Positions 984-49,787 of a stretch of 64,000 nucleotides of DNA are shown piece by piece. The stretch lies in NCBI GenBank assembly GCA_947172415.1, contig OX359190.1, positions 5,766,001 through 5,830,000 on the forward strand. The letters are read 5' to 3'. Origin of the DNA: Chondrosia reniformis. Taxonomy: Eukaryota > Porifera > Demospongiae > Chondrillida > Chondrillidae. The notes beneath the pieces are model-generated. The model worked only from the letters and a program-made list of their open reading frames with translations, was not told the origin of the DNA and searched no databases. The position numbers and the translations under genes are program-made. Within the stretch, counting starts at the first letter, position 1, and each line of letters starts with the position of its first letter.

Positions 984-1740
984 AGAGAAAAATAAATATT
1001 TTCTACAAAAATAGTGAAGATGTAGGGATGGCACAAAAAGCACATAAACAAGAAAGGGATGTTACACAGTGAAGCATTAGCTATATATGCATGAATCATA
1101 CAACACCCTTGCTTGTAGGATTCATGCATTGCTAATACTTCACTGTGTAATATCCCTTTCTTGTTTATGTACTTTTTGTGCCATTCCTACATCTTCACTA
1201 TTTTTGTAGAAATTTTTTATTTTTCTCTAGTTTCTGTACTTTTTATGGAGCCTAAGCTAGGAATTTGATTGTATTAAAACCCATTTTGGTTTTGATATCT
1301 TCGACTTATTATGACGTCATTAAAATGGCGAATTTATTGAGGCCTTGCCTCTGGGGCCATGAAAACCGTAATACTCAATAATAGCGTTATCGCTCTCGCT
1401 TCTACAAAAGAATACAGTTTGGAAAATTTGCAATAGTTTCGTTTAACAATTAGTCCAAAAGGTTATTTAGTTTTTTAGTTATGGCTGACGAAAAAGAAGA
1501 ATAATAAGAAGAAGAATATGAAGAAGACGAAAATGGGAATTTTTAAAGTTTATTATTTTGCCAGCGGGACATATTCGCTTGCCTTTAAGGTCTAGTTAGA
1601 GTATGTATATTGTATATTTAGCTATACATAGCCTTATTTTGTCGATTTTCGGCTTATTTCGGGATTTTGCTCCTATACCGATGTATGGGGAATGCGAAAA
1701 AACATGTCATCCCTACATAGGGAGTACCACCGTACTCCCT
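984..1740 (+). mobile_element. 757-bp hairpin-headed non-autonomous element, copy 1
   Basis: A second copy lies at 49034-49787. The first 250 bp form a near-perfect inverted repeat, with arms of about 110 bp (984-1095 and 1125-1240) that contain AACAAGAAAGGGATGTTACA and its complement. About 500 bp of non-repetitive sequence follows (TGACGTCATTAAAATGGCGA, then a purine-rich GAAGAAGAATATGAAGAAGA block). The right end is a short hairpin, GGGAGTAC-cacc-GTACTCCC. No convincing coding frame was found; a short ATGGCTGACGAAAAAGAAG start stops within a few codons. The family is not recognised. A terminal hairpin can suggest Helitron-type elements, but no CTRR end was seen. Confidence 0.75.
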
Positions 1741-2665
1741 GATATGTTTATGTACTAGGTATATGTACTACTTGTGGGTACTAGCTGTATTAGCTGGTTG
1801 TATGTACTAAGTCTATGTACTAGTTGTATATACTAGTTGTATTTACTATTTGTATGTACTATTTATATGTGTGTGTACTAGTTATATGTACTAGTTGTAT
1901 GCGCTAGCTGTATGTACTAGTTGTAGATACTATTTACATTTACTAGGTATACGTGTATTGTACTAGTTATATGTAGTAGGTGTATATACTTGTTATATGG
2001 CCTATTTGTATGTACTAGTTGCATGTACTAGTTGTATGGACTAGTTGTATATACTAGTCGCATGTACTAATTATATTTACTAGTTACTAATTGTATGAAC
2101 TAGTTGTACCTACGAAATTTATGTAATACTTGTATGTACTAGCTAAAGGTACAAATAGTACATAAAGTTGTATGTACTAGTTTCTAGTTGTATGTACTAT
2201 GTGTATGTACTATTCATATCTACTAGTTATATGTTTATGTATTAGTTATATGTAGTAGGTGTGTGAACTTATTATATGTACTAGTTAAAAGTACTAGTTG
2301 TATGTGCTAATTGTTTGTATACGTTCGGTGTACTAGTTGTATGTTTATACGAGTTGTATGTACTAGCTTTGTACTAGTTGTATGTTCTAATTGTTTGAAC
2401 TAGTTCTATGTACTAATTGTATGTACAGGTATGCACTAGTTACTAGTTTCTAGTTGTATGTAATAGTTGTAAGTACTAGTTGTTTGTACAATGTGTATGT
2501 ACCAGTTGTTGATTCTTGTACTACTTATACTATGTACTAGGGAGGTTCTAGTTGTATGTACTAGATACTACAACTAGAAACTAGAATATACATCTATATA
2601 GTATATATATAAAACTAGTACATTTAACTAGTCTACAACTGGTATATATAAACAACTAGTACAAA
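1741..2665 (-). repeat. Satellite 1, with orientation switch near 2570
   Basis: From 1741 to about 2565 the units read TGTATGTACTAGT. At about 2565-2580 the array flips (ACTAGATACTACAACTAGA) and the units then read ACTAGTACATACA. Everything to the right in this satellite keeps the second orientation. No gene is seen. Confidence 0.85.
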
Positions 2666-3045
2666 CAAGTATTTTGAGTTTAGAAACTCGTGGGGCTACC
2701 GCCCCCGCATTAACTGGAACTACTTGGCCACATCGTTGGGATTTAATATATATATTCGTAATACTAACGATTGAGGACGATTTAGTGTCCTGAACTTTAT
2801 AAATAAAGTTGGAAAAGCTTCGTAAACTAAAGCTTCCTGAACGCCGCCATTTGCAAAAACCATGTATTGACGTATAAATCAAGTATTACAATAGTTGCGT
2901 ATGAACTAGTATTATACAAATATCGACGTATAAAATAAGTGTTATAATAGTTGCGTATTAACCTGTATTATATATATAGATATATATATATACTCTTTCC
3001 GTAACATGAAGCCGTACAACGTAATCGGCAAATGAAAACAATATA
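2666..3045 (+). mobile_element. Small hairpin-headed element (right arm of the inverted repeat)
   Basis: It starts with a GC-rich hairpin (about 2666-2728, CAAGTATTTTGAGTTT to GGAACTACTTGG around GGGGCTACCGCCCC). A unique body contains CTGAACGCCGCCATTTGC, followed by a TATATA tract and a tail GAAAACAATATAAGG. The element at 26585-26970 has the same order: hairpin, CCGCCATTT, TATATA tract, GAAGCCATACG, GAAAACAATATAGGG. It is therefore a dispersed family. No coding capacity. Confidence 0.65.
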
Positions 3046-4816
3046 AGGTATACAAGTAGTACATAAAATTCGTAGTTACAAGTAGTTCATAAAATTAGTA
3101 GTTACAAGTAGTTCATAAGATTAGTAACTAGTCAATATAATTAGTACATGCGACTAGTGTATACAACTAGTCCATACAACTAGTGCATGCAACTAGTACA
3201 TACAACTAGGCCATGTAAATAGTACATACACCTACTACATGTAACTAGTACAATACACGTATACCTAGTAAATACATAAAACTAGTTCATACACCCTGTA
3301 CATACAAATGTAACGAGTACATATCAGTAGTACATACAAATAGTACATACAACTAGTACATATAACTAGTACATAAATATAGTACATACAACTAGTACAG
3401 AACACTAGTTCACACAAACAAACAAGTAGTTCATAGAACTAGTTCATTTCTAGAACCTAGTACCTAGTACTAGGAATATATAAATACATACAAAAACATA
3501 AATACACTCAGTACATACAAATGTAACGAGTACATATAAGTAGTACATACAACTATAACATACAACTAGTATATATAACTAGTACATAAATATAGTACAT
3601 ACAACTAGTACAAATAACTAGTACATACCACAATTACCCACTACTTATACATTGAACTAGTGCAAATAACTACTACATTCGATTAGTACATACAAATAGT
3701 ATTGAGTACATACAACTAGTACATACAACTAGTGCATACAATTAGTAAACACAAATAGTACATAAAGCTAGTAATTATAACTAGTACATACTACTAGTAC
3801 ATATAACTGGTACATATAAACAGTACATACAACTAGTTCATAAAACTAGTTCATACAACTAGTACATTCAACAAGTATCTAGTACATACAACTACAACCT
3901 ACCTAGTACATAGTATAACTAGTACAGGGATCAACAACTGGTACATACACATAGTACATACAACTAGTACTTACAATTAGTACATACAACTATAAACTAG
4001 TAACTAGTATATACTTTGTACATACAATTAGTACATAGAACTAGTTCCAACAATTAGAACATACAACTACAACATACACCTAGTAAATACAGCTAGTACA
4101 TAACACTAGTACATACAATTAGACAATAGAACATACAACTAGTACATACAACTAGTACAGACAAAGAGTACACACAACTAGTACATATAACTAGTACATA
4201 CAAACATTACCCACTACTTATACATTCAACTAGTAGAAAAAACTACTACATTGGACTAGTGCATACAAATAGTATTGAGTACATACAACTAGTACATACA
4301 ACTAGTGCATACAATTAGAACACACGGATAGTACATACAGCTAGTAAATATAACTAGTACATACTACTAGTACAGAAAACTATAGAGTACATATAACTGG
4401 TATATATAACTAGTACATATAAACAGTACATAAAACTAGTTCATACAACTAGTACATGCAACAAGTATCTAGTACATACAGCTAGAACCTACCTAGTACA
4501 TAGTATTAGTAGTACAAGAATTAACAACTGGTACATACACACAGTTCATACAACTAGTACTTACAACTAGGACATACAACTAGAAACTAGTAACTAGTAC
4601 TCACCTAGTACCAACAATTAGTACATAGAACTAGTACACACATATATAAATAGAACATACAAATAGTAAATTCAACTATTGCATACAACTAGTACATAGA
4701 ATTAGTACATACAACCAGCTAATACAGCTAGTACCTACAAGTAGTACATATACCTAGCACATACACATATATATAGTACATATAAATAGTACGTACAACT
4801 AGTATATATAACTAGT
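3046..4816 (+). repeat. Satellite 1
   Basis: Tandem degenerate ACTAGTACATACA units, with internal duplications of longer blocks: the stretch around 3640-3900 resembles that around 4200-4510. No gene is seen. Confidence 0.9.
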
Positions 4817-6262
4817 ATAGTGCATTTCACTATAAATGTATAATTTTCTTTTAAGGCGCTTTATGGAAAGTATCCTCAGTACATTTTTAAATTTGGTATC
4901 AAATGGAAGAGGAAACACTAGGGAATCCGTACCTGTTTTCGGTTTTGCGATAGCAGCTATCGTTTAGAAGATAGGCGTTATTGAAAGAGGATACCTATTT
5001 CAGCCAGTCAAATGGCTTCATTCAGTCACGTTTGCAAAATTAATAAGGTGAAATCGAGTTACAACGCAACGTTCCCGCGTATAACCATTATCGAAAATTG
5101 GATGCCTAAAAATAAACAAATAAACAGTTACATATTTTAAGCTTTTTAGAGGCGTATACGCTTGTTACGTTGATAAAGCTTTATTCGAAGGTCAAGCTAT
5201 AATAGTTAAGGCGATTTAAAGACTAAAAAGCTTTTAAAGTGGGAAATTATGTCAGAAATCGACAGAGAATTGGCCGAAGTCGGCAATCGTGATAACGAGG
5301 AACTATCCAGTGAACGAATGACTGAGGAAAGCGGTTGTAGCACAGTCGATCAAGGCATACCACAGAGTAGTACTCCTTCCCCAGCCTCAAGACTGGGTAA
5401 AAGGCAAAAGAGGTCTGAAAAGGCAAGATTATTTGATTAAAAAAGTGTGCTTTCAAATGTGTTTATCATTTGAGCCAGAAGGTAAAAAAGTAAATACTGC
5501 CTTTAAAGACTGTCACTGCCTAGTTATATGTGAATCTCGAGGAGTCTTAATTGGTAAAAAATGTCAAATGAAAGTTACTAGTGGTTGTCTATATTAACCC
5601 CACTTTTCAGTTAAATTTTATTCCCAAAAAAGTCTAGTAAGTTAAAATTACTATCTGAGTGTTGAATGTACACATACGAAGGCTAGAATCTATAGGATTC
5701 TTTAAAAGACAACTATACTTCATTAGTTGTTGAAAGTGTTGTTAAATATACTATGAAACCTTTATATCTCATCACACAGAGCGAAACTTACAAAAAGGCT
5801 ACTTAAAGATTTAGTATATTTCTTAAATATTCTTATACTAAAAGTCTGTATCGATTAGACTAACTTGAAAGGAGTGCCGATTAAAAGCCCTCAAGGTACG
5901 GAAATATGGAAACACGCAATAACTTTCTTATAAAATGTCCTATTAAAAAAAGCTACTTAGGTTTTTGAGTGTTTACAAGGGCTACCAGAAGCCAGCGTTT
6001 TGGTCTTCTCTGTTTCTTCTTCAACAAGCACCGATCACTTTTATCTTTTACTGCTGCCTTTCTTCTTCACGATTGTGCCATCAAAATTTTGACATAGCAA
6101 CGAATGTCGAAATTTTTCTTGCTGTTTCCATGGTTACTTGAGCATTATTATTTTGGTGGCAAGTTTGAAAAAGACTCACTTTTAACATTAATCACTTTTG
6201 TCACCCTGTTTTGAACCCCACTATACAATTGGAAATTTTACATTTATGGTGAAATGCACTAT
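4817..6262. mobile_element. 1.45-kb TIR DNA transposon, superfamily unknown
   Basis: The ends are an imperfect inverted repeat of about 30 bp. The left begins ATAGTGCATTTCACTATAAA and the right end, read in reverse, begins ATAGTGCATTTCACCATAAA. TA or TATA at both borders suggests a TA target duplication, though the first bases of the repeat could equally be TA. The interior is ordinary-composition DNA with no satellite units, so it interrupts satellite 1 cleanly. The only open frame of note is at 5249-5440, too short for a transposase, so the copy is probably non-autonomous or decayed. I cannot assign a superfamily from the termini. Confidence 0.7.
5249..5440 (+). CDS. Short hydrophilic ORF inside the TIR element
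   Basis: A 63-residue frame starting at ATG 5249 and ending at TAA 5438. It is acidic and polar in the first half (MSEIDRELAEVGNRDNEELS), Ser/Pro-rich in the middle, and basic near the end (RLGKRQKRSEKARLFD). Such a charged leader ahead of a Lys/Arg stretch could be the start of a transposase whose remainder has decayed, since lysine-rich codons follow the stop. No domain is recognised. It lies about 430 bp inside the left terminus of the element, a reasonable place for a transposase start. It could also be a chance frame. Confidence 0.3.
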   Translation: MSEIDRELAEVGNRDNEELSSERMTEESGCSTVDQGIPQSSTPSPASRLGKRQKRSEKARLFD

Positions 6263-7600: not shown

Positions 7601-7800
7601 NNNNNNNNNNNNNNNNNNNNNNNNNNNNNNNNNNNNNNNNNNNNNNNNNNNNNNNNNNNNNNNNNNNNNNNNNNNNNNNNNNNNNNNNNNNNNNNNNNNN
7701 NNNNNNNNNNNNNNNNNNNNNNNNNNNNNNNNNNNNNNNNNNNNNNNNNNNNNNNNNNNNNNNNNNNNNNNNNNNNNNNNNNNNNNNNNNNNNNNNNNNN
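7601..7800. other. Assembly gap, 200 N
   Basis: A run of 200 unknown bases inside satellite 1. The round number suggests a placeholder length, so true spacing is unknown. Confidence 0.99.
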
Positions 7801-8625: not shown

Positions 8626-10191
8626 TTACATAAGTCTACCCTTAGGTCTTCTAGTAGTAACATTTCTTTGGAGGTGGGGTAACACAATATGGGGTAACAC
8701 AAGACAGTCCTTAAGCATACTAGCTACTTTTTGCTTATACTTGATTCTAACTAGAGACTGCCGGGATAGGAAGGTTTTAAAGGTTGATTTTAGCTTAAAG
8801 TATTTGTAACCCTGCTTAATAAGCCTACTGCATAACTGCAAACTTTTAGCCTGAAAACTGGAGAAGTCACTACATATTCTAGAATACCTAATTAGTTGTG
8901 AAATAAAGACACCATAGGCTGGGGTATTAGGAATATTACTATCTAAATGGGGAAATTTACTATATCAAAGTTAAAGTCCTCTTGCTTATCATATACTTTA
9001 GTGATAAATTGATTGGTAGTAATGGTTATATCTAAGTCTAAAAAGGTGGATTTTTTAGGGCTGGTATTTGTCTTTTTAAGAATAAGTTCTTTGGGGTAAA
9101 TATCACTAATTGACAGTTCAAAATCCTTGTTGTTAATACATAAAAGGTCATCAATATACCTATAACTATTGGAAAATTTAATAGCTAGGGTGATTTTATC
9201 CTTAAGTAGTCCTTTCATAAACTCATACTCATAGGAAAACAGAAAAAGATTAGCAACAACAGGGGCACAGTCAGTACCCATAGGGATACCTACACATTGC
9301 TTAAATACAGAACCGTCTACATATACATAAATGTTGTCAATAAGGTAATTAAAGAGCTCTACTAAATGAATAGCTGTGACTGCTTTATTGGAGACATTGT
9401 TAAACCAAAATGCTTTATCCAGACAGACTTCTATATATTGGGACTTCCTACAGGTATAGGCACTATAAATTAGGTTAGTAATCTTATCTTTAAGTAGGTT
9501 ATGGGGGATCGCTGTATATAATGTAGAAAAATCAAAACTAGCTAGCTGGGCTTTTCTAGTGGGTATAGACCTAAGACTCTCTAAGACTTCTAGTGAGTTT
9601 TCTACTATCCAAAAGGCATTAACACCAGTATTCCTATATATACCTAGGCAGTATTCTCTAAAATGTTTGAGAATTAGTCTGAATGCCGAATTTAGAAATC
9701 TAGAAAGGGGTTTGGTAGTACATTTGTGAGAGGCGGCTATGAATCTGTAGCTGTAAGGGTTCTTATGTAGCTTAGGCATCCAGTAAAAAGAGGGAAGGTT
9801 ACACCAGTCTGGTGTAGGTTCTAAGTTCTCTAGTTTTAAGAAATCTATGTGTTTCCTAATTAACTGTTGGGGTTCTACTGTACATTTAGCATACGTGGAG
9901 GTACTGCCTAGTTCTTCATTAGGACTTACATATAAATATTATATTATTAGAGGCCTTATCGGCAGGGGCTATAACATACTTATCATGTAGGTCTGCTAAG
10001 AATTTCTTAATTTTAGGACAAGTAAGGGTCTTCTTGGCTACTGAGGATTTGGTATACAATTTAGACAGCTTAGAGATCCTATCATTAATTTTCTTAAATA
10101 CAGCATTTTCCCACTCACTAAATACAGAAGTAGATACATTTTCTCTACGGGCCCAGGTAATCTTATATTTTCTAAGACCTTTCTTACACAT
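8626..10191 (-). pseudogene. Reverse transcriptase region of PLE copy A, broken frame
   Basis: Open pieces lie at 9919-10191, 8943-9779 and 8626-8841 in different frames. RT motifs in order: KYVIAPADKASNNIIF (RT1), YWMPKLHKNPYSYRF then TKPLSRFL (RT2a region), FDFSTLYTAIPHNLL (motif A with the first catalytic Asp), GIPMGTDCAPVVANLFLFSY (motif B), YRYIDDLLCINN (motif C, the YIDD catalytic pair), and a thumb/C-terminal part with SRLIKQGYKYFKLKSTFKTF. This is a Penelope-type RT (GIPMGT and YIDD context), not an LTR or LINE RT. The catalytic residues are all present. The copy is non-functional because the reading frame is interrupted about three times. Parallel pieces in copy C read nearly the same protein. 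Confidence 0.85.
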
Positions 10192-10202
10192 TTTTAAAGC
10201 AG

Positions 10203-11528
10203 TTATCCAATTAAAGTTATTAGGTTCTCTAAATTTTGGTCCTTTCTTAGAAGTTTTCTAAGTTTTGGTTTACTAACAATACGTAGATCACCTGTTAAAA
10301 CATGGCCTAGGGGCTTGTAAATGAAGGGGGACTTGTGACACTCACATGGTTCTGGTTTTCTAAAAACATCTGACTTAGAGGTTTGTGAAAAGTTAAAGAT
10401 TTGAGGTCCTATTGGTTGGGTATACTTATATACTACACATGGGGGCTCTTTGTTTTGTATAAAGAGTGGGACAGTTTCTAACACTAACTTTTGGTTTAAG
10501 ATACCTGAGAGGCCTATTTTTTCTACACCTTTATTATGAAACACGATTTTAAGAAACCCTTCTGGACTTGTTGTTTTCGTTGGGTGTTTGGGAAGGCTGG
10601 CTGAAGCGCGTGCTTTAATAACGTCTTTAATCATTAGCGTAAGTCTAAGCGGAAAAGGTGTTTCTGGGGTATCGATGAGACATTGTACCGAGTTTAACAA
10701 ACGGTGAAGGTGTTGAGCTTGTAATGCAAAAGTATCGCGTTTAAGTTTGGCTAGAAAGCCCACGTTCTTGTAAAGTGGTAGTCGTTCTTTGAGCCATTTA
10801 GGGTCGTAGGCAGCGTTATTACTACTGCCTGTCAATTTTAGATTGGAGCGCCGATGCCGTCTTTTATGAGATAAGCGATTAAAAAGGTTCCATACGATGA
10901 TTTCTTTTTTAAGTTTTGAAATATTGCCAACGCCTTTAATGTTATCGTTAAGTCCATATGGGTAAATAGAGCAGAGTTCCTTGTACCAGAACGCTTCTCT
11001 CAGTAGTCTGAGGCTAGTAGAATTAGGTGTCTCAGGTATCTGTTCTATGGGCATAATCAAGGCATCATCAAAACTATGGTTATCAGAATTAAAGTGATTG
11101 TAAAGATACAGTGGCTTAAAACCTTTGGTACTAGTCCTATGGTTGTTCTTTCTACTCCTAAGCATCTGAGAGGTTTCCCCTACATACTGTACATCACATT
11201 GTTTACAAGTAATAAGATACACAACATTCCTACTCTGGCATCCTAGGGGACCACAAGGGCTACGGACTTGATAGGTCCTGCCAGTAACTGAACTCTTAAA
11301 AGTAGGGCCAGTAACTAAAGAGGGACATGTTTTACACCGCTTATTGCTACACTTCTTAACTAGTGAGGGGCTAGCTTGCCCACCAGTAGGCACCCCTCTA
11401 CCTACAGATGGGGGAGAGTTAGCTAACTTTTCATAACCAGGCACCCTACCTTTACCTAATGACGGGGAGCTTGTTAACCCGGGCGACCTCCCAGCCGGTA
11501 TCCTATCTCTATACTTTGTACTTGTCAT
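10203..11528 (-). CDS. GIY-YIG endonuclease and N-terminal RT region of PLE copy A
   Basis: A 441-residue frame whose ATG is shared, in context, with copy D at 63386. The N-terminal 60 residues are Pro/Gly/Ser-rich. A cysteine cluster CSNKRCKTC (about residues 60-68) precedes the GIY-YIG core: VVYLITCKQCDVQYVGET (about 104-121) is the GIY/YIG pair in this family's variant form, followed by a basic helix LRSRKNNHR. The middle part continues into conserved RT-leader sequence (SASLPKHPTKTTSPEGFLKI, about 305-325). The enzyme would nick target DNA for target-primed reverse transcription. The frame ends early, before the RT core, because of a break. The same protein in copy D is open to the window edge. 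The assignment to an N-terminal GIY-YIG Penelope-like clade is strong from domain order. Confidence 0.85.
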   Translation of the reverse strand: MTSTKYRDRIPAGRSPGLTSSPSLGKGRVPGYEKLANSPPSVGRGVPTGGQASPSLVKKCSNKRCKTCPSLVTGPTFKSSVTGRTYQVRSPCGPLGCQSRNVVYLITCKQCDVQYVGETSQMLRSRKNNHRTSTKGFKPLYLYNHFNSDNHSFDDALIMPIEQIPETPNSTSLRLLREAFWYKELCSIYPYGLNDNIKGVGNISKLKKEIIVWNLFNRLSHKRRHRRSNLKLTGSSNNAAYDPKWLKERLPLYKNVGFLAKLKRDTFALQAQHLHRLLNSVQCLIDTPETPFPLRLTLMIKDVIKARASASLPKHPTKTTSPEGFLKIVFHNKGVEKIGLSGILNQKLVLETVPLFIQNKEPPCVVYKYTQPIGPQIFNFSQTSKSDVFRKPEPCECHKSPFIYKPLGHVLTGDLRIVSKPKLRKLLRKDQNLENLITLIG

Positions 11529-11670
11529 GATTGGAAATGGGTCAAGGACTAGACGAGCTAGTCCACAAAGACTTAACCTATTACATGTAGCCGGGGCTAT
11601 TTAAAGGCAACAATGGCTCAACAGCCACCAGGGACTAACATGAGGCTAAGTAAACACATGAAACATCTAA

Positions 11671-15962: not shown

Positions 15963-15967
15963 AACCA

Positions 15968-29460: not shown

Positions 29461-31707
29461 TTTCTAGCCAAACTTAAAGCGATACTTTTGCATTACAAGC
29501 TCGACACCCTCATCGTTTGTTAAACTCGGTACAATGTCTCATTGATACCCAAGAAACACCTTTTCTGCTTAGACTTATGCTAATGATTATAGACATTATT
29601 AAAGCACCCGCTTCAGCCAGCCTTCCCAAACACCCAACAAAATCGACAAGTCCAGAAGGGTTTCTTAAAATTGTGTTTCATAATAAAGGTGTAGAAAAAA
29701 TAGGCCTCTCAGGTATCTTAAACCAAAAGTTAGTGTTAGAAACTGTCCCACCCTTTATACAAAACAAAGAGCCCGCATGTGTAGTATATAAGTATACCCA
29801 ACCAATAGGACCTCAAATCTTTTCACAAGCCTCTAAGTCAGATGTCTTTAGAAAACCAGAACCATGTGAGTGTCACCAGTCGCCCTTCATTTACAAGCCC
29901 CTAGGCCATGTTTTAACAGGTGACCTATGTATTGTTAGTAACCCAAAACTTAGAAAACTTCTTAAGAAAGGACAACAATTTAGAGAACCTAATAACTTTA
30001 ATTGGGTAACTGCTTTAAAAATGTGTAAGGAAGGTCTTAGAAAATATAAGATTACCTGGGCCCGTAGAGAAAATGTATCTACTTCTGTATTTAGTGAGTG
30101 GGAAAATGCTGTATTTAAGAAAATTAATTATTAGGATCTCTACGCTGTCTAAATCGTATACCAAATCCTCAGTAGCCAAGAAGACCCTTACTTGTCCTAA
30201 AATTAAAAAATTCTTGGCAGACCTACATGATAAGTATGTTATAGCCCCTGCCGATAAGGCCTCTAATAATATAATATTTATATGTAAGTCCTACTATAGA
30301 CAAATTATTAATGAAGAACTAGGCAGTACCTCCACTTATGGTAAACGTACAGTAGAACCCCAACAGTTAATTAGGAAACACATAGATTTCTTAAAACTAG
30401 AGAACTTAGAACCTAAACCAGACTGGTGTAACCTTCCCTCTTTTTACTGGATGCCTAAGCTACATAAAAACCCTTACAGCTACAGATTCCTAGCTGCCTC
30501 TCACAAATATACTACCAAATCCCTTTCTAGATTTCTAAATTCGGCACTCAGACTAATTCTCAAACATATTAGAGAATACTGCCTAGGTATATATAGGAAT
30601 ACTGGTGTTAATGCCTTTTGGATAGTAGAAAACTCACTAGAAGTCTTAGATAGTCTTAGGTCTATACCCACCAGAAAAGCCCAGCTAGCTAGTTTTGATT
30701 TTTCTACATTATATACAGCGATCCCCCATAACCTACTTAAAGATAAGATTACTAACCTTATTCATAGTGCCTATACCTGTAGGAAGTCCCAATATATAGA
30801 AGTCTGTCAGGATAAAGCCTTTTGGTCTAACAATGTCTCCAATAAAGCAGTCACAGCTGTTCATTTAGTAGAGCTCTTTAATTACCATATTGACAACATT
30901 TATGTATGTGTAGACGGTTCTGTATTTAAGCAATTTGTAGGTATCCCTATGGGTACTGACTGTGCCCCTGTAGTTGCTAATCTTTTTCTCTTTGCCTATG
31001 AGTATGAGTTTATGAAAGGACTACTTAAGGATAACATCACCTTAGATAGTAAATTTTCCAATACTTATAGGTATATTGATGACCTTTTATGTATTAACAA
31101 CAAGGATGTTGAACTGTCAATAAGTGATATTTACCCCAAAAAATTTATTCTTAAAAAGACAAATACCACCCCTAAAAATCCCCTTTTCAGACTTAGATAT
31201 AACCATTACTACCAATCAATTTATCACTAAAGTATAAGATAAGCGAGAGGACTTTAACTTTGATATAGTAAATTTCCCCCATTTAGATAGTAATATTCCT
31301 AATACCCCAGCCTATGGTGTCTTTATTTCACAACTAATTAGGTATTCCAGAATATGTAGTGACTTCTCCAGTTTTCAGGCTAAAAGTTTGCAGCTATGCA
31401 GTAGGCTTATTAAGCAGGGTTACAAATACTTTAAGCTAAAATCAACCTTTAAAACCTTCCTATCCCGGCAGCCTCTAGTTAGAATCAAGTATAAACAAAT
31501 AGTAGCTAGTATGCTTAAGGACTGTCTTGTGTAACCCCATATTGTGTTACCCCACCTCCAAAGAACTGTTACTACTAAAAGACCTAAGGGTAGACTTATG
31601 TAATATGTCTTACTTGTGTCTATAGTTAATCTGAGTCTGTTTAACCTTTACAAGCATGAATACTAAGAGATTTATAATTAATTCATAAAAGTTAATTGGA
31701 CCTACAT
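29461..31707 (+). mobile_element. PLE copy C, truncated at both ends
   Basis: It starts inside the RT-leader part of the protein (CTAGCCAAACTTAAAGCGAT) and ends in the 3' region at GGACCTACAT, where satellite 2 begins at once with CCTCGTACGACGATG. The 3' hammerhead region present in copies A and B is missing. Its left flank is satellite 1 and its right flank is satellite 2, so it marks the border between the two satellites. It is the same family as copies A, B and D. Confidence 0.85.
29517..31230 (+). pseudogene. PLE copy C reverse transcriptase, broken frame
   Basis: Two overlapping open pieces (29517-30134 and 30073-31230) read the RT leader and most of the RT core. Motifs seen: KYVIAPADKASNNIIF, YWMPKLHKNPYSYRF, FDFSTLYTAIPHNLL, GIPMGTDCAPVVANLFLF and YRYIDDLLCINN. 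The catalytic aspartates (motif A FDFS and motif C YIDD) are intact. The ORF is interrupted about twice to three times, and the GIY-YIG domain is absent by 5' truncation. It would have copied element RNA into DNA at a nicked target. Very close to copy A, so insertion of both was recent on the scale of this locus. Confidence 0.85.
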
Positions 31708-34318
31708 CCTCGTACGACGATGTTATCCGTAACACCATCGGTCACGTGGGTTCCAAAATATATGTTGTAAATGAAGTCCAATTTATATACCACTCACTTT
31801 TGACTCTACCTATATATGCATTATATAAGATAAATAATATGCATATAACATATATACAATATATATTACATATAAGATTTATAATACATATATAAGCTGT
31901 ATGCTCTTTTTCTTTTTCAGGACCCAACCTGGTATTGAACCACGACATCCTCATAACTTGTGTCCGGACGATGTCATCCGTAACACCATCGGTCACGTCG
32001 GTCACCCAATATATGTTGCAAATGAAGTCCTATCTATATACCACTCACTTTAGACTTACATCTATATGCAATATATAAGATATATAATATGCATATAAGA
32101 TATATACAATATATATTACATATAAGATATATAATAAATATATATTATGTGTGCTTTTTTTCTTTTTTCAGGACCCAACCTGGCATTGAACCAGGATATC
32201 CTCGTACCTTGTATCCAGACGATGTTATCCGTAACATCATCGGTCACGTGGGTTCTACAATATATGTTGTAAATGAAGTCCTATTTATATATCACTCACT
32301 TTTGACTCTACATATTTATGCAATATATAAGATATATAATATGCATATAAGATATATACAAAATATATTTCATATAAGATATATAATAGATTTTTAAAAT
32401 TTATGCTTTTTTTCTTATTTTCTTTTTTCAGGACCCAACCTGGTATTGAACCAGGGCATCCTCGCACCTTGTATCCAGACTATGTCATCCGTAACACCAT
32501 AGGTCACCTGGGTCACCCAATATATGTTGTAAATGAAGTCCTATTTATATACCGCACACTTTTGACTTTACACATATATGCAATACATATATACATAATA
32601 TGCATATAAGATATATACAATATATATTACATATAAGATATATAAACATATATATTATGCATGCTTTTTTTTCTTTTTTCAAGCCACAACCTAGTATTGA
32701 ACCAGGACTTCCTCGTACCTTGTATCCAGACGATGTCATCCGTAACACCATCGGTCACGTGGGTCACCCAATATATGTTGTAAATGTAGTCCTTTTTATA
32801 TACCAATCACTTTTGACTCTACATATATATGCAATATTTATATATATAATAAGCACAAAAGATATATACAATATATATCACATATAAGATATATAATACA
32901 TATATAATATGTATTTTGTTTTCTATTTTCGGAACCCAACCTTGTTTCGAACCAGGGCATCCTCGTACCTTGCATCCAGACGATGCCATCCGTAATACCA
33001 TTGGTCACGTGGGTTCCACAATATATTTTGTAAATGAAGTCCTCTTTATATACCACTCACTTTTGACTCTACATATTTATGCAATATATAATATCCATAT
33101 AAAATATAAACAATATATATTACATATAAGATATTTAACACATATCTAGGATGTATGCTTTTTCCTTTTTTTCTCTTTCTGTACCCAACCTTGTATTGAA
33201 CCAGGGCATCATCGTGCCTTGTATCCAGACGATGTCATCCGTAACACCATCGGTCACGTGGGTCACCCTATATATGCTGTAAATGAAGTCCTATCTATAT
33301 ACCACTAACTTTTGACTCTAAATATATATGCAATATATAAGATATATAATATGCATATAAGATATATACAATATATATTACTTATAAGATTTATAATACA
33401 TATATAAGATGTATGCTCTTTTTCTTTTTTCAGGACCCAACCTGGTATTGAACGAGGGCATCCTCGTACATTGTATCCAGACGATGTCATCCGTAACACC
33501 ATCGGTCACGTCAGTTACACAATATATGGTGTAAATGAAGTCCTATTTATATACCGCACACTTTTCACTCTACATATATATGAATTATATATAAGATATA
33601 TTATATTCATATATAAGATATATACAATATATATTACATATAAGATATATAATACATATATAAGATGTATCTTTTTTTTCCTTTTTTCTTGACCCAACCT
33701 GGTATTGAACCAGGACATCCTCGTACCTTGTTTCCAGACGATGTTATCCGTAACACCATCGGTCACCTGGGTCACCCAATATATGTTGTAAAATAAGTCT
33801 TATTTATATACTACTAACTTTTGAATCTACTATTTTTTTGCATTATATAAGATATATAATAAGCATATAAGATATATACAATATATATTACATATATATA
33901 AGATTTGTAATACATATATAAGATGGATGCTTTTTTTTCTTTTTTCAGGACCAAACCTGGTATTGAACCACGACATCCTCGTACCTTGTATCCTGACGAT
34001 GTCATCCGTAACACCATCGGTCACGTCGGTTACACAATATGTGGTGTAAATGAAGTCCTATTTATATACCACTCACTTTTGACTCTACATATATATGAAT
34101 TATATATAAGATATATTATATTCATATATAAGATATATACAATATATATTACATATAAGATATATAATACATATATAAGATGTATCTTTTTTTTCCTTTT
34201 TTCTTGACCCAACCTGGTATTGAACCAGGACATCCTCGTACCTTGTTTCCAGACGATGTTATCCGTAACACCATCGGTCACCTGGGTCACCCAATATATG
34301 TTGTAAAAGAAGTCTTAT
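31708..34318 (-). repeat. Satellite 2 (about 255-bp unit), block 1
   Basis: About ten units. Each has a conserved half (ACCTGGTATTGAACCAGG, CATCCTCGTACC, ATGTTATCCGTAACACCATC, GGTCACGTGGGTTCC, CCTATTTATATACCACTCAC) and an AT-rich half built of GATATATAATATGCATAT-like motifs, then a CTTTTTTCTTTTTTCAG tract. On the minus strand the conserved half resembles a tRNA. 33471-33770 and 33986-34285 are a duplicated dimer (offset 515 bp). The long open frames through these arrays on both strands are by-products of the repeat. Confidence 0.9.
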
Positions 34319-38438: not shown

Positions 38439-38808
38439 CGTCAAGCAGGTCGCAATGAATTACTTCAAGGTTGCAAAGATGAAGAACTTCGTTCATTGGT
38501 GTTGAGAGTGCAGCAGCACCATCATACATCAACTTGCAGGAAAGCAACCCGAAGGGGGAAAAATGTGGCAGACTGCCGATTTGATTTTCCTCAACCTCTG
38601 TCAGAAGATACACGGCTAAAAAGCCATGATGATCCTGGAAACAAGTCCAGGTTCTATGTCTTGAAGAGATCAGCAAGGGAAGAAACTGCAATCCATACAA
38701 TACACACCTTCTGAAGGCATGGAAAGCTAATATGGATATACAATTGATTGGATCAGTATATGGCACAGCTGCATATGTGTGTTGCAGAATGACATGGGAT
38801 GGGTTCGT
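38439..38808 (+). pseudogene. Helitron-like Rep-distal conserved region, frame broken
   Basis: From 38439 the frame reads ELLQGCKDEELRSLVLRVQQ then HHHTSTCRK and CRFDFPQPLSEDTRL, ending at 38714. In another frame NPYNTHLLKAWKANMDIQLI, GSVYGTAAYVC follows (about 38688-38808). These blocks, with HT-TC, CRF-FP-P and LLKAW-ANMDIQ, are the conserved stretch between the Rep and helicase domains in animal Helitron proteins. One frame change separates them, and a TGA at 38809-38811 ends the second. The usual sequence between this block and the helicase leader is shortened. Confidence 0.6.
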
Positions 38809-40932
38809 CTGAGAAGGAAGCAAGCCTGTCTTCGAATCCCAATACAGACAGTAGAAAGTCATGGTGATGACTATTACTACAGTTTGCTGCTACTATACAT
38901 CCCTTGGAGGAAGGAACCTGAGGATCTGTTGAAAGGTCACTCTTCTGCAATGGAGGCTTTCATTGTACGAGAAGGAGAAATGGTTGTTTTGAATGCTCAC
39001 AATCATGCCTTTGCAGATGAAGTGCAGAAGGCTGTTGTGCAACTACAAGCCTTGGAAGACGATGCCTACCAAGATGTTGTTGCCCCAATGGCACAGCAGG
39101 CTCAAAGGGAGGATGCTGCACAACCCTTTATTGAGGCTGAAGGAGGGTTGATGAACCCAGAGCATTTCATGGACCCAGCATGCCTTGATGATGACAATCT
39201 GAGTGCAATAGAGGAAGAACATATGCTCCTAAATGACAATGCTGACGACATTGGAGCTATGAGTAGACACTCCCTTACGGATAGGGAATTTAGGCAACTC
39301 ATTGCAAGTTTGAATACAAAGCAGCGTATTCCATTTGGCATTGTTGTGCACTACACTCGTGAGTTGCACAAACACAGAATGAAAATACGCCACAAACCTC
39401 CAGAACCATTTCATCTGTTTGTGACAGGTGGAGCAGGCACTGGAAAATCACATGTAATTAGGGCTATTAAAGAGCATATGGAACGTTCTATGTCAGGGAG
39501 TCAAGAGATGCATGCCTGTATGTTGATGGCACCCACCGGGGTTGCAGCCTTCAACATTGGAGGCCTCACAATCCATAGAGCATTGCGGCTTCAGGTGGAG
39601 CATGGCAGAACTGCTCATCAATTGCAGCTGAATGCCCTAGCCCTGCATGACTTGAGGAATCTGTGGCAAGGAGTGCACACCATCATCATTGATGAAATCA
39701 GTATGGTGTCTTACCAGATACTGAAGTCAGTTCACAGTCGACTGTGTGAGATTTATGGCAATGATGAGATCTTTTGTGGCTTGAATGTCATTGCAGTGGG
39801 TGACTTGTACCAGCTATCTCCAGTAAACCGTAGTTTTATATTCAGTCAGAAACCTGGACGCTCATCGGGGTGACTGGCTTCACACCTTTGGAGGGATTTC
39901 TTCAAGGTGATTGAACTGGAAGTGAACATGCGTCAGCAGAATGATGTTTCATTCTAAGAGATACTTAATCGGATCAGGACGGGCGTGCACACCAATGAAG
40001 ATGTGAAAATTCTTCAAACACGTTTGGTTTCGGGTGGGACTGTGGATTTGCTGGCTTCCCCATTTGATACAGCTCTGACATTGTATCCTCGTAGAGTAGA
40101 TGTTTATGGGCACAATGAAATGCAGATAAAAAGTCTAGCAAAGAGCAGTCAAATCTATAGTATTGATGCCGAGCATGCAATATTAGAGAGTCGAGGGCAA
40201 ATTTATGCCAATATTAAATACAATGAGGTTCCTGAACGTCTCATTCCACAGGATGATAAAGACTGTGCTGCACTGCCCCGTATACTGAAGCTAGCAGTTG
40301 GTGCTAGAGTAATGTTGCGACGAAACATTAACTGTGGTGATGGCTTGGTAAATGGTGCCAAAGGAACAATTGTAGGCTTCAAGTGGTCAAGAGATGCAAG
40401 GCATCAGAGTATGCCTGGTGAATTACCCACAGAGGTATATGTGAGATTCTTAGATCCCAATGTGGGGAAATTGTCAAAGGTACCAGTTGTCTCGGAGCAA
40501 CAGGATGTTGTACCAATTCAGCCTATTTCTGCACGTTTCTATGGAAAGGAAGGTACACTCCTGCAGAGAACACAGATTCCTTTGATTCTGTGCTGGGCAG
40601 CAACTGTTCACAAGGTGCAAGGATTGTCTCTTGATGCAGCAGTCATGGATTTAGGGAAGGATGTATTTGAACCTGGAATGGCCTATGTAGTTCTTAGTCG
40701 TGTGCGCACACTGAATGGAGTGGCCCTGCTGAACTTTCAGCCAAAGAAGATGACAGCAAACAAGAGAGTCCATGAGGAAATGGCAAGGCTACAACAAGAA
40801 TCTGCTCATAGTGGTGAGGAATCAGAAAAAGAGGAGTTAATATCAGGTCATTTTGTCCAGAATTGTAGTCAAAATGAGGAGAAATCAAGTGCTGCAGTAA
40901 AGGGTAGTAGTGCTTTGGTATATACACAATGA
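38779..40932 (+). pseudogene. Pif1-type helicase of Helitron-like element
   Basis: One frame with two in-frame stops (TGA 39871, TAA 39955); otherwise continuous for about 717 codons. The leader RRKQACLRIP and DDYYYSLLLLYIPWR is typical of Helitron helicases. Motifs: LNTKQR (about residue 180), Walker A GGAGTGKS (about 217-224), MLMAPTGVAAFNIGG (motif Ia), Walker B IIIDEISMVS (about 302-311), VGDLYQLSPV (motif III), LWRDFFKVIELEVNMRQQ after the first stop, LAVGARVMLRRNINCGDGLVNGA, TVHKVQGLSLD (motif V), and AYVVLSRVRTLNGVALLNF (motif VI). It would unwind DNA 5'-3' during rolling-circle-like transposition. All seven motif regions are readable, so decay is modest. It may be a Pif1-like stand-alone element rather than a full Helitron. 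Confidence 0.8.
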
Positions 40933-41887
40933 CAAGTGTATGTCACAATCTTACGTTAAGAGTGCGGATAAAGGGACATATGGCAAGGAGTATACATCGG
41001 AACCATTGGTGGTTGGCAGTCAGTCTGTGCATTCAGACATCCCAATTACTTATGTGGACACACTGGTGTTGTCACTGAAAACAACACTTGAAGGTATAGT
41101 GACTAGTAACACTTTGAATAGTGAGTCAATAGTAAGGTGGTCAAAGTGTCATCACAGTGAATTACAGACTATTCTTAAAGTTGTCAATCGTCCTTCCCGG
41201 GCAACTTTCAGTAATTTGCATCATCAAGTGGATGTTGCAGTAAAAGACAAAGTCTTTCCAGCTTTTACGTCACAGTACATGCCAGTTTGCACTAAAGGAG
41301 GTGGAAATTGTATGTATCATATGCTATCGTTGGCCCTCTGTGGAACAGAGCAGTACATGTGCCACTTGAGATTGGTGACCGCTTATAGCCTCATTGTGCA
41401 TCAACAACATATGCTAAAAGTCATTCAGCCAACTGCTAGGATACTTCTACCGTTGCAGAAACGAGATGCTGCTTCAGTTGCTAAAGCAGCAGAAGTACAC
41501 TGGCTGGAACTACTTTGCAGTTCGATCACTGACAAGTCATGGGGAAACCAATTTCATCTGCATGCACTGGCAATGATTTTGGAGAGGTCTATTTGGTTGT
41601 ATGGTGTGATGTACGGCAGATGCCTTCAAGATGAAGGAAAGCAGCTCCAACCAATTAAGCAGGATGTAACACCTACTGAATTGCAAGATCTGTTTGAAAT
41701 GAGAGACAAGAGGTTGAATAACAGCATTTGCTATCGCTTTGATGCAGTCCTAGAAGAGCATGTTCCCCTTTTAGGATTTCTGGATTCCTCTCATTTCACT
41801 GCCATTCTTCCAACGGTGTCTGCAAAATGTTCCTTAGGGTTTGCTCCATTTACCACCTTCATGTCACAGTGGGCTCCTGAAGAGTGA
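40910..41887 (+). CDS. OTU-family cysteine protease domain downstream of the helicase
   Basis: A 325-residue frame that overlaps the end of the helicase frame by 23 bases in another phase, so a single frame change or a splice joins them. The catalytic block GGGNCMYHMLSLALCG (Cys about residue 134) is the OTU nucleophile motif, with Gly where Asp is more common. It is followed by LRLVTAYSLIVH and a Trp-Gly block SWGNQFHLHALAMIL, and the catalytic His is in SSHFTAIL (about residue 295). OTU domains remove ubiquitin; they are known passengers of animal Helentrons. Here the domain lies C-terminal to the helicase, whereas in described Helentrons I recall it toward the N-terminal side. Stop TGA at 41885. 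Confidence 0.75.
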   Translation: MLWYIHNDKCMSQSYVKSADKGTYGKEYTSEPLVVGSQSVHSDIPITYVDTLVLSLKTTLEGIVTSNTLNSESIVRWSKCHHSELQTILKVVNRPSRATFSNLHHQVDVAVKDKVFPAFTSQYMPVCTKGGGNCMYHMLSLALCGTEQYMCHLRLVTAYSLIVHQQHMLKVIQPTARILLPLQKRDAASVAKAAEVHWLELLCSSITDKSWGNQFHLHALAMILERSIWLYGVMYGRCLQDEGKQLQPIKQDVTPTELQDLFEMRDKRLNNSICYRFDAVLEEHVPLLGFLDSSHFTAILPTVSAKCSLGFAPFTTFMSQWAPEE

Positions 41888-42901: not shown

Positions 42902-42963
42902 CAAGTAGTTCGAGTTCATTCGGGGGGCGGGAGCCCCACGAGTTTTTTAACTCGAACTACTTG
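42902..42963. repeat. Solo GC-rich hairpin
   Basis: CAAGTAGTTCGAGTT and AACTCGAACTACTTG are perfect 15-bp arms around GGGGGGCGGGAGCCCC. It is the same hairpin that heads the elements at 17-331, 2666-3045 and 26585-26970, here without the body, exactly at the border between the Helitron-like region and satellite 2. Confidence 0.75.
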
Positions 42964-42969
42964 TTTTTC

Positions 42970-45202: not shown

Positions 45203-46375
45203 CATTGGAACCTCTGTTAACGGACATTCCCAATAGCGAAAACCTCCACTACAACGGCACGGAAGTAAAGCACCGACTGAACTTCGTATTAAAGTAGTAT
45301 GTAAGAACCCTCCGTATAGCGGAAACCTCTCAGTTCTGTAATAACGAACTTATCTCCTTTTCCAAAGTGTAAATTCTATCTCTATTTAACGGAAAAGGGA
45401 ATCACAATTCGAACGTGATATATCTGGAATTAACGTGTGTGTCAAAAGAATGCGAATTGCGAGTAGTATACACAATCTTTTGACACGTATTGATTTGACA
45501 CCTTAGTAACTTCGTATACACATCCCGTACAACTAAGCATTCTTTTAACCACAATGTTTACATATACCCGAATTTTCGACCAGATTCAAATCCAGTGATA
45601 TTATTAGGTAAGCAGCTGCCATCTACGGACAGGAGGAGCATCTTGAATAAGATAGATATGAACAGAACCGACATAGTAAGGAAAGCCTCCCTAAGGACAA
45701 AGAACTGTCGTCCTTGAATGTCCTTTAAAAAGCTTTTTAAATGAGCACGTACAGAACACAGGATCAAATTACAGGTTTCATATGGTGTGAAATCTATTTG
45801 AAACTTCTTGAACAGCCAGGTTTCAAAGGGTGCTCAAAAATGTGCTAACAGATTAATTTCACTGGTTTCAAATTTTAACAGCCCCCTTTCCGAGTTTATA
45901 CATACTTTCATACCTTTTGAAACCTGGCAGTTCATAGAGTTTCAAATAGGTTTCATGCCATCTGAAACCTGATATTTGATCCTTTGGAATAAAGTTATCT
46001 TGAAAAGTATCTTCTTAGGGATGCTCCTCCTGTCCATAGATGGCAGCTGCTTAACTATCACTGGATTCGAAAGAATCCCTGCAGGACATCAAATACTTTT
46101 TGGAGAGCTATTCCCACTTTATTGAAGCAGCTACTACCAGCAACCTTATTGATAGAGTTGCAATGTTGCATTCAGTTTGTGCCAGACAGACTACTATAGA
46201 AGATCATAATTAAGGACTATAGTTACATGTGTGCATGTAAATGTATATATATGAAGTCTGAGTAATTATTTTGTGTAAAAACAAGAAATGCGCAAAACCT
46301 CCCTTTAAAGAAAACCTCCTAAATAAAGGAAAAAGAAATTGTCCCAATGATGTTTGTTATTCGGAGGTTCCACTG
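45203..46375 (+). mobile_element. pogo/Tigger-like DNA transposon, 1.17 kb, TA-flanked
   Basis: The left end is CATTGGAACCTCTGTTAACG and the right end, read in reverse, is CAGTGGAACCTCCGAATAAC. TA lies on both sides (45201-45202 and 46376-46377), as for Tc1/mariner-pogo elements. Inside there are two nested inverted repeats: about 45583-45645 with 46021-46075 (GCAGCTGCCATCTA), and about 45770-45825 with 45915-45980 (GGTTTCA blocks). Near the right end a coding tail survives (46073-46213). Most of the transposase is gone. Confidence 0.7.
46073..46213 (+). pseudogene. C-terminal remnant of a pogo-like transposase
   Basis: A 46-codon open tail ending TAA at 46211, reading ESLQDIKYFLESYSHFIEAA then TTSNLIDRVAMLHSVCARQT. 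It is helical and acidic, as transposase tails of this superfamily often are. Its position just inside the right terminus fits. No catalytic DDE/D residue is present. The family call follows from the TIR and TA borders, not from this peptide. Confidence 0.35.
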
Positions 46376-46377
46376 TA

Positions 46378-49033
46378 ATAGATGTATGCTTTTTTCTTTT
46401 TTTCTTCTTTCAGGACCCCACCTGGTTTTGGACCATGGCATCCTTGTACGAAGATGTTATCCGTAACATCATCGGTCACATGGGTTCCACAATGTATCAT
46501 GTAAATGAAGTCTTATTTATATACCACTCACTTCTGACTCTACATTTATATGCAATATATAAGATATATAATATGCATATAAGATATATACAATATATAT
46601 TACATATAAGATATATATTACACATAATAAATTGTTGGCTTTTTTCTTTTTTCACGACCCAACCTGGTATTGAACCAGGGCATCCTCGTACAACGATGTT
46701 ATCCATAACACCATCGGTCACGTGGGTTTCACAATATATTTTGTAAATGAAGTCCTATTTATATACCACTCACTTTTGACTCTACATATATATGCAATAA
46801 ATAAGATATATAATATGCATATAAGATATGTACAATATATATTACATATAAGATATATAATACATATATTACTTGTTGACTTTTTCTTTTTTCAGGACCC
46901 AACCTGGTATTGAACTTGGGCATCCTCGTACCTTGTATCCAGACGATGTCATCCGTAACACCATTGGTCACGTGCGTCACCCAATATATGTTGTAAATGA
47001 AGTCCTATTTATATACCACACACTTTTGACTCTATATATATATGCAATATATATATATATATATATATATAATATGCATATAAGATATATACAATATACA
47101 TTACATATAAGATATATAATACATATATATTATGCATGCTTTTTTCTTTTTTCAGGACCCAACCTGGTATTGAGTGAGGACATCCTCGTACCTTGTATCA
47201 AGACGATGTTATCCGTAACACAATCGGTCATGTGGGCTCCACAATATATGTTGTAAATGATGTCCTATTTATATACCACTCACTTTTGACTCTACATATA
47301 CATGCAATATATATATATATATAATATGAATATAAGATATTCACAATATATATTACATATAAGATATAGAATATATATATAAGTTGTTTGCTTTTTTTTC
47401 AGGACCCAACCTGTTATTGCACCAGGGCATCCTCGTACGACGATGTTATTCGTAACATTATCGGTCACGTTTGTTCCACACTGTATCTTGTAAATGAAGT
47501 CCTATTTATATACCACTCACTTTTGACTCTACATATATATGCAATATATATATATATATATAATATGAATATAAGATATTCACAATATATATTACATATA
47601 AGATATAGAATACATATATAAGTTGTTTGCTTCTTTTTCAGGACCCAACCAGTTATTACACCAGGGCATCCTCGTACGACGATGTTATCCATAACATTAT
47701 CGGTCACGTTTGTTCCACAATGTATCTTGTAAATGAAGTCCTATTTATATACCACTCACTTTTGACTCTACATAAATATGCAATATATAAGATATATAAT
47801 ATGCATATAAGATATATTCAATTTATATTACATATAAGATATATAATACATATATAAGATGTTGACTTTTTTCTTTTTTCAGGACCCAACCTGGTATTGA
47901 ACTAGGGCATCCTCGTACCTTGTATCCTGACGATGTCATCCGTAACACCATCGGTCACGTGCGTCACCCAATATATGTTGTAAATGATGTCCTATTTATA
48001 TACCACTCACTTTTGACTCTACATATATATGCAATATATATATATATAATATGCATATAAGATATAAAGAATATATATTACATATAAGATATATAATACA
48101 TATATATTATGCATGCTTTTTTTTCTTTTTTCAGGACCCAACCTGGTATTGAATCAGGACATCCTCGTACCTTGTATCCAGAAGATGTTATCCATAACAC
48201 AATCGGTCACGTGGGCTCCACAATATATGTTGTAAATGATGTCCTATTTATATACCACTCACTTTTGACTCTACATATATATGCAATATATATATATATA
48301 TAATATGAATATAAGATATACACAATATATATTACATTTAAGATATAGAATACATATATAATTTGTTTGCTTTTTTTTTCAGGACCCAACCTGGTATTGA
48401 ACCAGGGCATCCTCGTACGACGATGTTATCCGTAACATCATCGACCACGTTGGTTTCACAATGTATTGTAAATGAAGTCCTATTTATATACCACTAACTT
48501 TTGACTCTACATATATATGCAATATATAAGATATATAATATGCATATAAGATATATTCCATATATATTACATATAAGATATATAATACATATATAAGTTG
48601 TTGGCTTACTTTCTTTTTTCAGGCCCAACCTGGTATTGAACTAGGGCAATCTCGTACCTTGTATCCAGACGATGTTATCCGTAACACAATCGGTCACGTG
48701 GGCTCCACAATATATGTTGTAAATGATGTCCTATTTATATACCACTAACTTTTGACTCTACATATATATGCAATATATAAGATATATAATATGCATATAA
48801 GATATATTCCATATATATTACATATAAGATATATAATACATATACAAGTTGTTGGCTTATTTTCTTTTTTCAGGCCCAACCTGGTATTGAACTAGGGCAT
48901 TCTCGTACCTTGTATCCAGACGATGTTATCCGTAACACAATCGGTCACGTGGGCTCCACAATATATGTTGTAAATGATGTCCTATTTATATACCACTCAC
49001 TTTTGACTCTACATATATATGCAATATATATAT
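46378..49033 (-). repeat. Satellite 2, block 3
   Basis: About ten units. Some carry long (TA)n runs, for example 47045-47072. No gene. Confidence 0.9.
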
Positions 49034-49787
49034 ACTAGAAATATTAAAAATTTTCTACAAAAATAGTGAAGATGTAGGGATGGCATAAAAAGTAGAGAAA
49101 CAAGAAAGGGATGTTACACAGTGAAGCATTAGCTATATACATGAATCCTACAAGCAAGGGTGTTGTATGATTCATGCATATAGCTAATGCTTCACTGTGT
49201 AACATCCCTTTCTTGTTTCTCTACTTTTTATGCCATCCCTACATCTTCACTATTTTTGTAGAAAATTTTTAATATTTCTAGTTTCTGTACTTTTTATGGA
49301 GCATGGGCTAGGAATTAGATTCATATAATTAAAATCATTTTGGTTTCGCAATCTTCGACTGATTATGACGTCATTAAAATGGCGACTTTATTGAGGCCTT
49401 GACTCTAGGGTCATGGAAACCGTCATGCTCAATAATAGCGTTATCGCTCTCGCTTCTACAAAAGAATACAGCTCGGAAAATTTGCAGTAGTTTCGTGTAA
49501 CAATTAGTTCAAAAGCTTATATAGTTTTTTAGTTATGGCTGACGAAGAAGAATAAGAAGAATATGAAGAAGACGAAAATGGGAATTTTTAAAGTTTATTA
49601 TTTCGCCAGCGGGACATATTCGCTTGCCTTTAAGGTCTATTTAGAGTATGTATATTGTATATTTAGCTATACATAGCCTTGTTTTGTCGATTTTCGGCCT
49701 ATTTCGGGATTTCGCTCCTATACCAATGTATGGGGAAAACGAAAAAAACCGTGTCATCCCTACATAGGGAGTACTACCGTACTCCCT
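49034..49787 (+). mobile_element. 754-bp hairpin-headed element, copy 2
   Basis: It matches 984-1740 throughout, including the outer inverted repeat (ACTAGAAATATTAAAAATTT and its complement), the GAAGAAGAATAAGAAGAATA block and the closing hairpin GGGAGTAC...GTACTCCC. The arms are more perfect than in copy 1. The small loop between the arms is in the opposite orientation to copy 1. Satellite 2 resumes on both sides mid-unit, so it is a clean insertion. Confidence 0.8.

Follow-up and report, generated by a model that had tools for sequence, protein, structure and literature searches.

Evidence for recurrent inversion of the centre of a long 3' palindrome in a non-autonomous Helitron family of the sponge Chondrosia reniformis

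We analysed a stretch of 64,000 nucleotides (nt) from chromosome 2 of the sponge Chondrosia reniformis (positions 5766001-5830000, hereafter the window). It holds two copies of an element that ends in a long palindrome, and the loops of the two palindromes are flipped relative to each other. The genome searched for relatives comprised 117,379,552 bases in 15 contigs. In both copies a palindrome with arms of about 113 nt is followed by some 500 bp of body, and a short stem-loop closes the other end. An initial annotation had described two copies with like arms and bodies in the same orientation, and an end-to-end alignment in one orientation confirmed this with 89.5% identity over 769 columns. 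The limits were refined to 982-1742 for copy 1, by homology with copy 2, and to exactly 49035-49789 for copy 2, by its empty insertion site. Both lie on the minus strand, which is the sense of the Rep frame of the putative partner described below (Rep sense), so that in copy 1 the hairpin end is at the left.

In copy 1 the outer (terminal) hairpin arm spans 984-1097 and the inner arm 1119-1230, as determined by alignment and fold, with the loop region ATACAACACCCTTGCTTGTAG between them at 1098-1118. The corresponding parts of copy 2 are the outer arm at 49035-49147, the loop region CTACAAGCAAGGGTGTTGTAT at 49148-49168 and the inner arm at 49169-49281; arms and loops carry no strand. The loops were found to be exact reverse complements over 21 nt, as the initial annotation had proposed. 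The palindrome is about 240 nt long and folds with -106.3 kcal/mol (z -26) in copy 1 and -130.1 kcal/mol (z -34) in copy 2, with DNA parameters and in comparison to 200 shuffles. A subterminal inverted repeat, GATGTAGGGATGGCA, lies within the outer arm at 1019-1033 and 49071-49085, and its partner TGTCATCCCTACATAG close to the other end at 1705-1720 and 49752-49767, which makes the terminal inverted repeat asymmetric. The short stem-loop, the hairpin of the Rep-sense 5' end, is GGGAGTAC-CACC-GTACTCCC at 1720-1739 in copy 1 and GGGAGTAC-TACC-GTACTCCC at 49767-49786 in copy 2 (repeats and stem-loops on the plus strand). When the window was scanned for the motifs of the tail stem, the subterminal repeat and the arms, they turned up in copies 1 and 2 only.

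The copies are almost certainly non-autonomous Helitrons (rolling-circle transposons) of one family. Copy 2 interrupts a satellite of about 250 bp, and its flanks, when joined, equal the paralogous satellite unit at 48194-48367 (plus strand) with 0 mismatches over 173 bases. This exact empty site, available for one copy, places the insertion between A49034 and T49790 without target duplication. On the minus strand copy 2 starts with 5'-TCAG and ends with CTAG-3'. A was found directly before TCAG in 51/51 copies with that end scored, and TA in 47 of them. At the other end, where canonical Helitrons have 3'-CTRR, 23/54 copies, copy 2 included, had CTAG in place, and T came next in 22 of these 23. 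The 5'-TC terminus, CTAG-3' in those 23 copies and the A/T target without duplication are shared with canonical Helitron (Helitron1) elements such as Helraiser, and so are a locus with Rep and Pif1 and the existence of head-to-tail tandem copies, seen here in region L059 (PMC4778049). Unlike canonical Helitrons, the family has the 3' subterminal repeat inside a palindrome of about 240 nt, and its 3' terminus is often imprecise. The canonical short G+C-rich hairpin (16-20 nt, set about 11 nt in from the 3' terminus) was absent on inspection of the last 40 nt. This stretch is A+T-rich, a TAGAAA..TTTCTA stem in it is weak at best, and the long palindrome occupies that end. The satellite itself covers 31716-34318 and about 43000-63300 of the window, with a tRNA-like stretch in each unit (by eye, box-B-like), in which ARAGORN called no tRNA.

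The initial annotation knew of no described family with such a layout. This was not supported, as Helitron2-type elements are described with a hairpin at each terminus and with inverted repeats that are asymmetric (PMC5148889, PMC4067079), and the element has the ends and the target choice of a Helitron. It has a 5' hairpin starting at TCAG, TCAGGGAGTACGGTAGTACTCCC, and both window copies have the asymmetric repeats. FoHeli1/2 of Fusarium also start with TCAG and a 5' terminal hairpin, carry hairpins at both ends and have asymmetric terminal inverted repeats whose 3' member is set tens of nt in from the terminus, but they differ in their TNAT/T target and ATTTT 3' end, where we found A/T and CTAG, and the flipping 3' hairpin of the sponge family is far longer (PMC5148889). 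With the Helentron-type HINE/DINE-1 elements the family shares subterminal inverted repeats, end palindromes, high copy number and lack of coding capacity. Their TT target was not found, since A precedes TCAG in every scored copy and the empty site is A/T, and a long flipping palindrome is not among the HINE features described in the text consulted (PMC4067079). The sponge elements thereby add a Helitron family that combines Helitron1 ends with a Helitron2 layout. A Foldback element or miniature inverted-repeat transposable element (MITE) was rejected, as the palindrome is at one end only and there is no target duplication. The evidence that the hairpin is a separate MITE inserted in the body was too thin: in a sample of 11 loops without the exact body anchor, eight belonged to full or internally deleted elements, one was a hairpin alone with its outer side cut (L098), and two (L099, L101) were fragments of the Rep-sense 3' end only, ending in or just past the palindrome loop.

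A genome search with PF14214 (Rep) listed 133 matches, and the stretches next to six Rep loci were examined. Two of the six, C4:3329045 and C5:3597642 (C for chromosome), carry the arm of the family 3' of the frame. The first has a single frame of 2510 codons with no stop and matches to PF14214 (E 5.9e-26) and PF05970 (Pif1; E 4.2e-21), and the second a single frame of 2555 codons with both domains. By these matches, the putative partner would encode the Rep (HUH) protein and Pif1-like helicase of the Helitron order. The hairpin arms at C4 are 91-93% identical to those of the family and form a palindrome with 156-nt arms, 100% complementary, with 485 nt between them, and the start of the body adjoins one arm. 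Upstream of this frame lies the tail half of the body (e2 positions 330-725 of 755, 79% over 408 columns), and the TCAG end would fall about 30 nt beyond the examined stretch. Because the arms lie 3' of the Rep frame, the long "head" hairpin of the initial annotation, which is indeed present, is actually the Rep-sense 3' end. In appearance the short elements are deletion derivatives, and their small loop likewise seems to have come from the Rep-locus palindrome by deletion. Another Rep locus (L111) has an old body copy (72-76%) and no hairpin in the one stretch examined, and no significant family match was found in one stretch each of a triple tandem on C5 (L110) and of loci on C13 and C6 (L114, L115).

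Some observations weigh against the Helitron assignment. The putative link to a partner with Rep and Pif1 comes from one locus with family sequence on both sides of the frame (C4) and another with family sequence on the one side examined (C5). CTAG was not in place in 31 of 54 copies, copy 1 ends with TTAG where CTAG is expected, and both arm-bearing Rep loci end with TTCTCT. A separate comparison, of end precision between loop orientations, had CTAG in place in 17/34 A vs 6/20 B copies, a difference that is not significant (Fisher P 0.17); A denotes the loop of copy 1 and B the flipped loop of copy 2.

The initial annotation had further proposed scoring loop orientation over all genomic copies. 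With exact patterns of loop plus body anchor we found both orientations across the genome, with 329 A places and 31 B places (31/360 of type B), and the reversed control patterns gave 0 matches. The refuting condition named in the annotation, one orientation common to all other copies, is thus contradicted. These counts are lower bounds, because the body anchor alone matched 504 times and the 17-nt A-type loop 516 times on both strands. All 31 B places were examined, namely copy 2 and 30 fetched regions. In an extraction of elements three that have no loop were dropped. An assembly slip was judged unlikely because of these counts, the empty control and a twin of copy 2 on chromosome 5, which is 100% identical as rounded, of orientation B and set in different flanks.

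Comparison of the B centres with the fetched A hairpins leaves us in little doubt that the centre of the palindrome has truly inverted, and repeatedly. Matches were measured as left arm + 15-nt core + right arm. In five B groups the centres were exact reverse complements of A centres, and the match extended over 125 nt (55+15+55) for copy 2 and L061 vs L096, 146 nt (71+15+60) for L062 vs L100, 244 nt (109+15+120) for L065 vs L059, 162 nt (98+15+49) for L069 vs the A copy of L084, and 139 nt (11+15+113) for 10 of the 14 copies of the largest B group vs the A copy of L085. Without the flip, the best match of copy 2 had arms of 11 and 2 nt. Where the two arms are not symmetric, their differences were swapped together with the loop in copy 2, L065 and L069. 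Region L085 contains two tandem heads that are alike over 286 bp save for a short inverted-loop centre and one nearby base. The initial annotation had inferred at least one inversion of the segment between the arms, by recombination between them or by replication through a cruciform; the inversion stands, more than once, and both routes are still live, but the inverted segment extends into the arms.

In a tree of 73 bodies, 28 of them B, orientation needed nine changes, five of them forced by starred branches, in comparison to a mean of 22.5-22.6 after shuffling. One clade of 14 bodies held 12 B and 2 A. The tree excludes four sites where a hairpin is shared (two each on C13 and C8) and includes five copies with a foreign outer arm and L109, which has a poor loop; removal of L109, of L057 and of three duplicates of copy 1 (68 rows left) did not alter the count of nine changes. 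The exact centre matches, the changes on the body tree and the chromosome 5 twin of copy 2 in different flanks together show that flips are repeated, uncommon and inherited. Copy 1 shares a tail flank with its 29 best fetched matches and has therefore been duplicated passively along with its surroundings, and all 30 copies are of type A; at the same rate 1.56 flips would be expected among them (P 0.21). In C3:2742358-4183135, copies like copy 1 form minus/plus pairs with a spacing of about 10-12 kb (e.g. L011/L021, L008/L027, L012/L024), the hairpin ends facing and the flanks in common, which makes up a large inverted-repeat unit that was amplified several times.

Not everything fits repeated inversion equally well. 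Taking all 31 B places as flips had to be rejected, as nine are not clean flips: at the four shared-hairpin sites the hairpin is common to one body and a further body or stub on its far side, and five places (L064, L066, L086-L088) have a foreign outer arm. As scored, no A hairpin matched the core of these five, of L068 or of L109 as an exact reverse complement; L072 matched in the core only and L071 over 27+15+21. Finally, 39 of the 69 forks of the body tree are weak.

The arms were compared in 61 of 74 copies, after 13 with broken arms had been dropped and the four shared-hairpin or stub sites excluded. The arms of one copy differed by 0.052 on average, while same-side arms of different copies differed by 0.016-0.032 when their bodies were <3% apart and by 0.086-0.131 when they were >=6% apart. 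Over all 24 variable columns the two arms of a copy agreed 1058 times vs 772.6 expected. Agreement was above expectation in 16 columns, seven of which agreed in 56-60 of 61 copies vs 26-45 expected. The eight variable columns nearest the loop behaved differently, with six at expectation and two below it, one with agreement in 2/61 copies (18.9 expected). Counted from the loop in bins of 10 nt, the mismatch between the arms of a copy was 0.116 in the first bin, 0.192 in the second, 0.007-0.033 at 21-100 nt and 0.052 at 101-110 nt. For the same arm in different copies, the difference was 0.034 in the first bin, 0.209 in the second and 0.019-0.131 between 21 and 100 nt. The arms thus evolve in concert except near the loop, and the first 10-nt bin is clearly not homogenised. 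In one copy (L052) a 6-nt insertion was present in both arms, and none of the other 14 aligned copies has it. Among 15 chosen copies, 13 of 113 pairs had changed on both sides, two of them in the loop owing to the flip itself.

Two full A-type elements on C13 (C13:3403488 and C13:3698248) have a hairpin that leads on into the first part of their own body, copied in inverted orientation. At C8:3361030 one hairpin is common to two full elements, and L080 is similar as far as fetched. The halves of the C8 dimers belong to different subfamilies, so recombination is likely there.

We lean towards polymerase fold-back or template switching at the 3' hairpin, rather than breakage and recombination, as the probable source of these patterns, because arm homogenisation with loop inversion is its described signature. 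Both have been attributed to template switching (PMC8604942), and loop inversion has been reported with a discussion of hairpin priming (PMC8794818). The palindromic 3' end would become single-stranded during host replication or rolling-circle transposition, and a growing or free 3' end may then fold back or switch strand within the palindrome. If the outer arm were copied from the inner one, the arms would be homogenised; if the centre were copied on the opposite strand before synthesis returned, the loop would be inverted; and if copying ran on, a stub of body in inverted orientation would be left, like those of the two C13 copies. As the 3' hairpin of Helraiser has been proposed as a termination signal (PMC4778049), it is plausible that the 3' end pauses in single-stranded form. 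Ordinary transposition would copy the loop unchanged and so keep flips rare, and the inherited, biased orientation fits rolling-circle copying with rare turn-rounds. A related but rather unlikely possibility is that rolling-circle transposition itself rebuilds the 3' palindrome, when the freed 3' end folds back and primes on the inner arm, with an optional parvovirus-like hairpin transfer. The outer arm would be re-copied as far as a stem of about 20 nt beside the loop that acts as the primer, and an occasional full turn-round would yield an inverted dimer that is resolved with the loop flipped. If true, this would be a eukaryotic rolling-circle transposon with an optional parvovirus-like step, and the 20-nt limit would mark the primer.

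Several points weigh against polymerase switching, and some of them bear on a possible but doubtful alternative, cruciform extrusion or arm recombination in chromosomal DNA, in which resolution inverts the centre and hairpin mismatch repair homogenises the arms. The arms are long and nearly perfect, and the C8 head-to-head dimers, with different subfamilies on a single hairpin, likely point to recombination. The inversions swap the inner asymmetries reciprocally, which fits polymerase switching, cruciform resolution and crossing over alike, so that the flip itself does not separate them. Inverted stubs were found by exact pattern at only two places in the genome. Cruciform repair offers no obvious cause for the loss of homogenisation in the 20 nt next to the loop, although part of the inner mismatch may reflect a stretch that changes fast anyway, because the difference at 11-20 nt is 0.209 between copies too. 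At 71-80 nt the within-copy mismatch (0.021) was no lower than that between copies (0.019), and selection for pairing could add to the agreement of the arms. Chromosomal events do not obviously account for stubs of an element's own body past its end, and no flips were seen in the 30 passively duplicated copies; this zero is not significant, and flips in situ could still occur. A parvovirus-like rolling hairpin at every transposition, with the 3' hairpin priming itself and an inverted dimer resolved with the end flipped, is very improbable, because orientation should then be randomised and is instead biased, with 329 of 360 places A and 12 B with 2 A in one body clade. The product types seen in the sponge speak for it, as they resemble those of adeno-associated virus (AAV) in two centre orientations, matching arms and inverted junctions, but AAV2 inverted terminal repeats in one head-to-tail (rolling-circle) read keep a single orientation (PMC11575299). 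Hardly credible at all is that A and B are independent deletions of a longer-looped palindrome that kept the motif at the left or at the right. The Rep-locus palindrome, with the loop motif in both arms around the 485-nt spacer, speaks for it, but the same junction and substitutions would be needed every time in each subfamily, and in the five B groups the agreement with A centres is exact, down to a mismatched pair.

Fold-back synthesis would place the sponge family beside the template-switch mutations described at inverted repeats, with which it shares arm homogenisation and inversion of the spacer or loop. Those cases concern short repeats (arms of 10-16 nt and spacers of 3-5 nt in the examined rows of a table of yeast spacer inversions) or RNA genes (PMC8604942, PMC8794818), unlike the arms of about 113 nt in a multicopy transposon here. 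The flip and flop terminal repeats of AAV are likewise terminal palindromes with two centre orientations and a Rep protein, but the sponge orientation is inherited and strongly biased, with one such end per element (PMC11575299). Literature searches on Helitrons, sponge Helitrons, template switching and transposon loop inversion brought up no flipping 3' end among the papers listed, with Repbase, Dfam and most subscription papers outside this search, nor was a hairpin length of 240 nt found in the parts consulted of the Helitron papers. The loop could serve as a natural recorder, in which hundreds of dispersed copies report DNA synthesis on a long hairpin by orientation and arm agreement, and this makes fold-back synthesis in animal rolling-circle transposition, as opposed to ordinary replication, testable. 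As a caution, compensatory changes within a palindrome need not imply selection for RNA structure.

Other mobile elements were seen along the way. A Helitron remnant in the window at 38731-41887 (plus strand) has Helitron-type frames with a Pif1 helicase, whose match contains two stops, and an OTU protease. It was not supported as the partner, given that the family motifs of the window are confined to copies 1 and 2, and its lineage is apparently not that of the partner described above. L111:100, L114:874 and L115:1797 share an identical hairpin, TGCAGTGGC-N5-GCCACTGCA, which belongs to another Helitron lineage and was not found in the window; in L114 and L115 it lies just past the end of a frame that by eye resembles the OTU frame of the window. 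On C5, three Rep/helicase frames with equal scores at 4589442, 4601407 and 4613372 are spaced by exactly 11,965 bp and are probably a head-to-tail triple of another Helitron. In the window, frames with weak reverse-transcriptase and GIY-YIG matches are present at 8943-11600 (minus strand), with similar frames in the opposite orientation at 29478-31230 (plus strand), and we take both to be Penelope-like.

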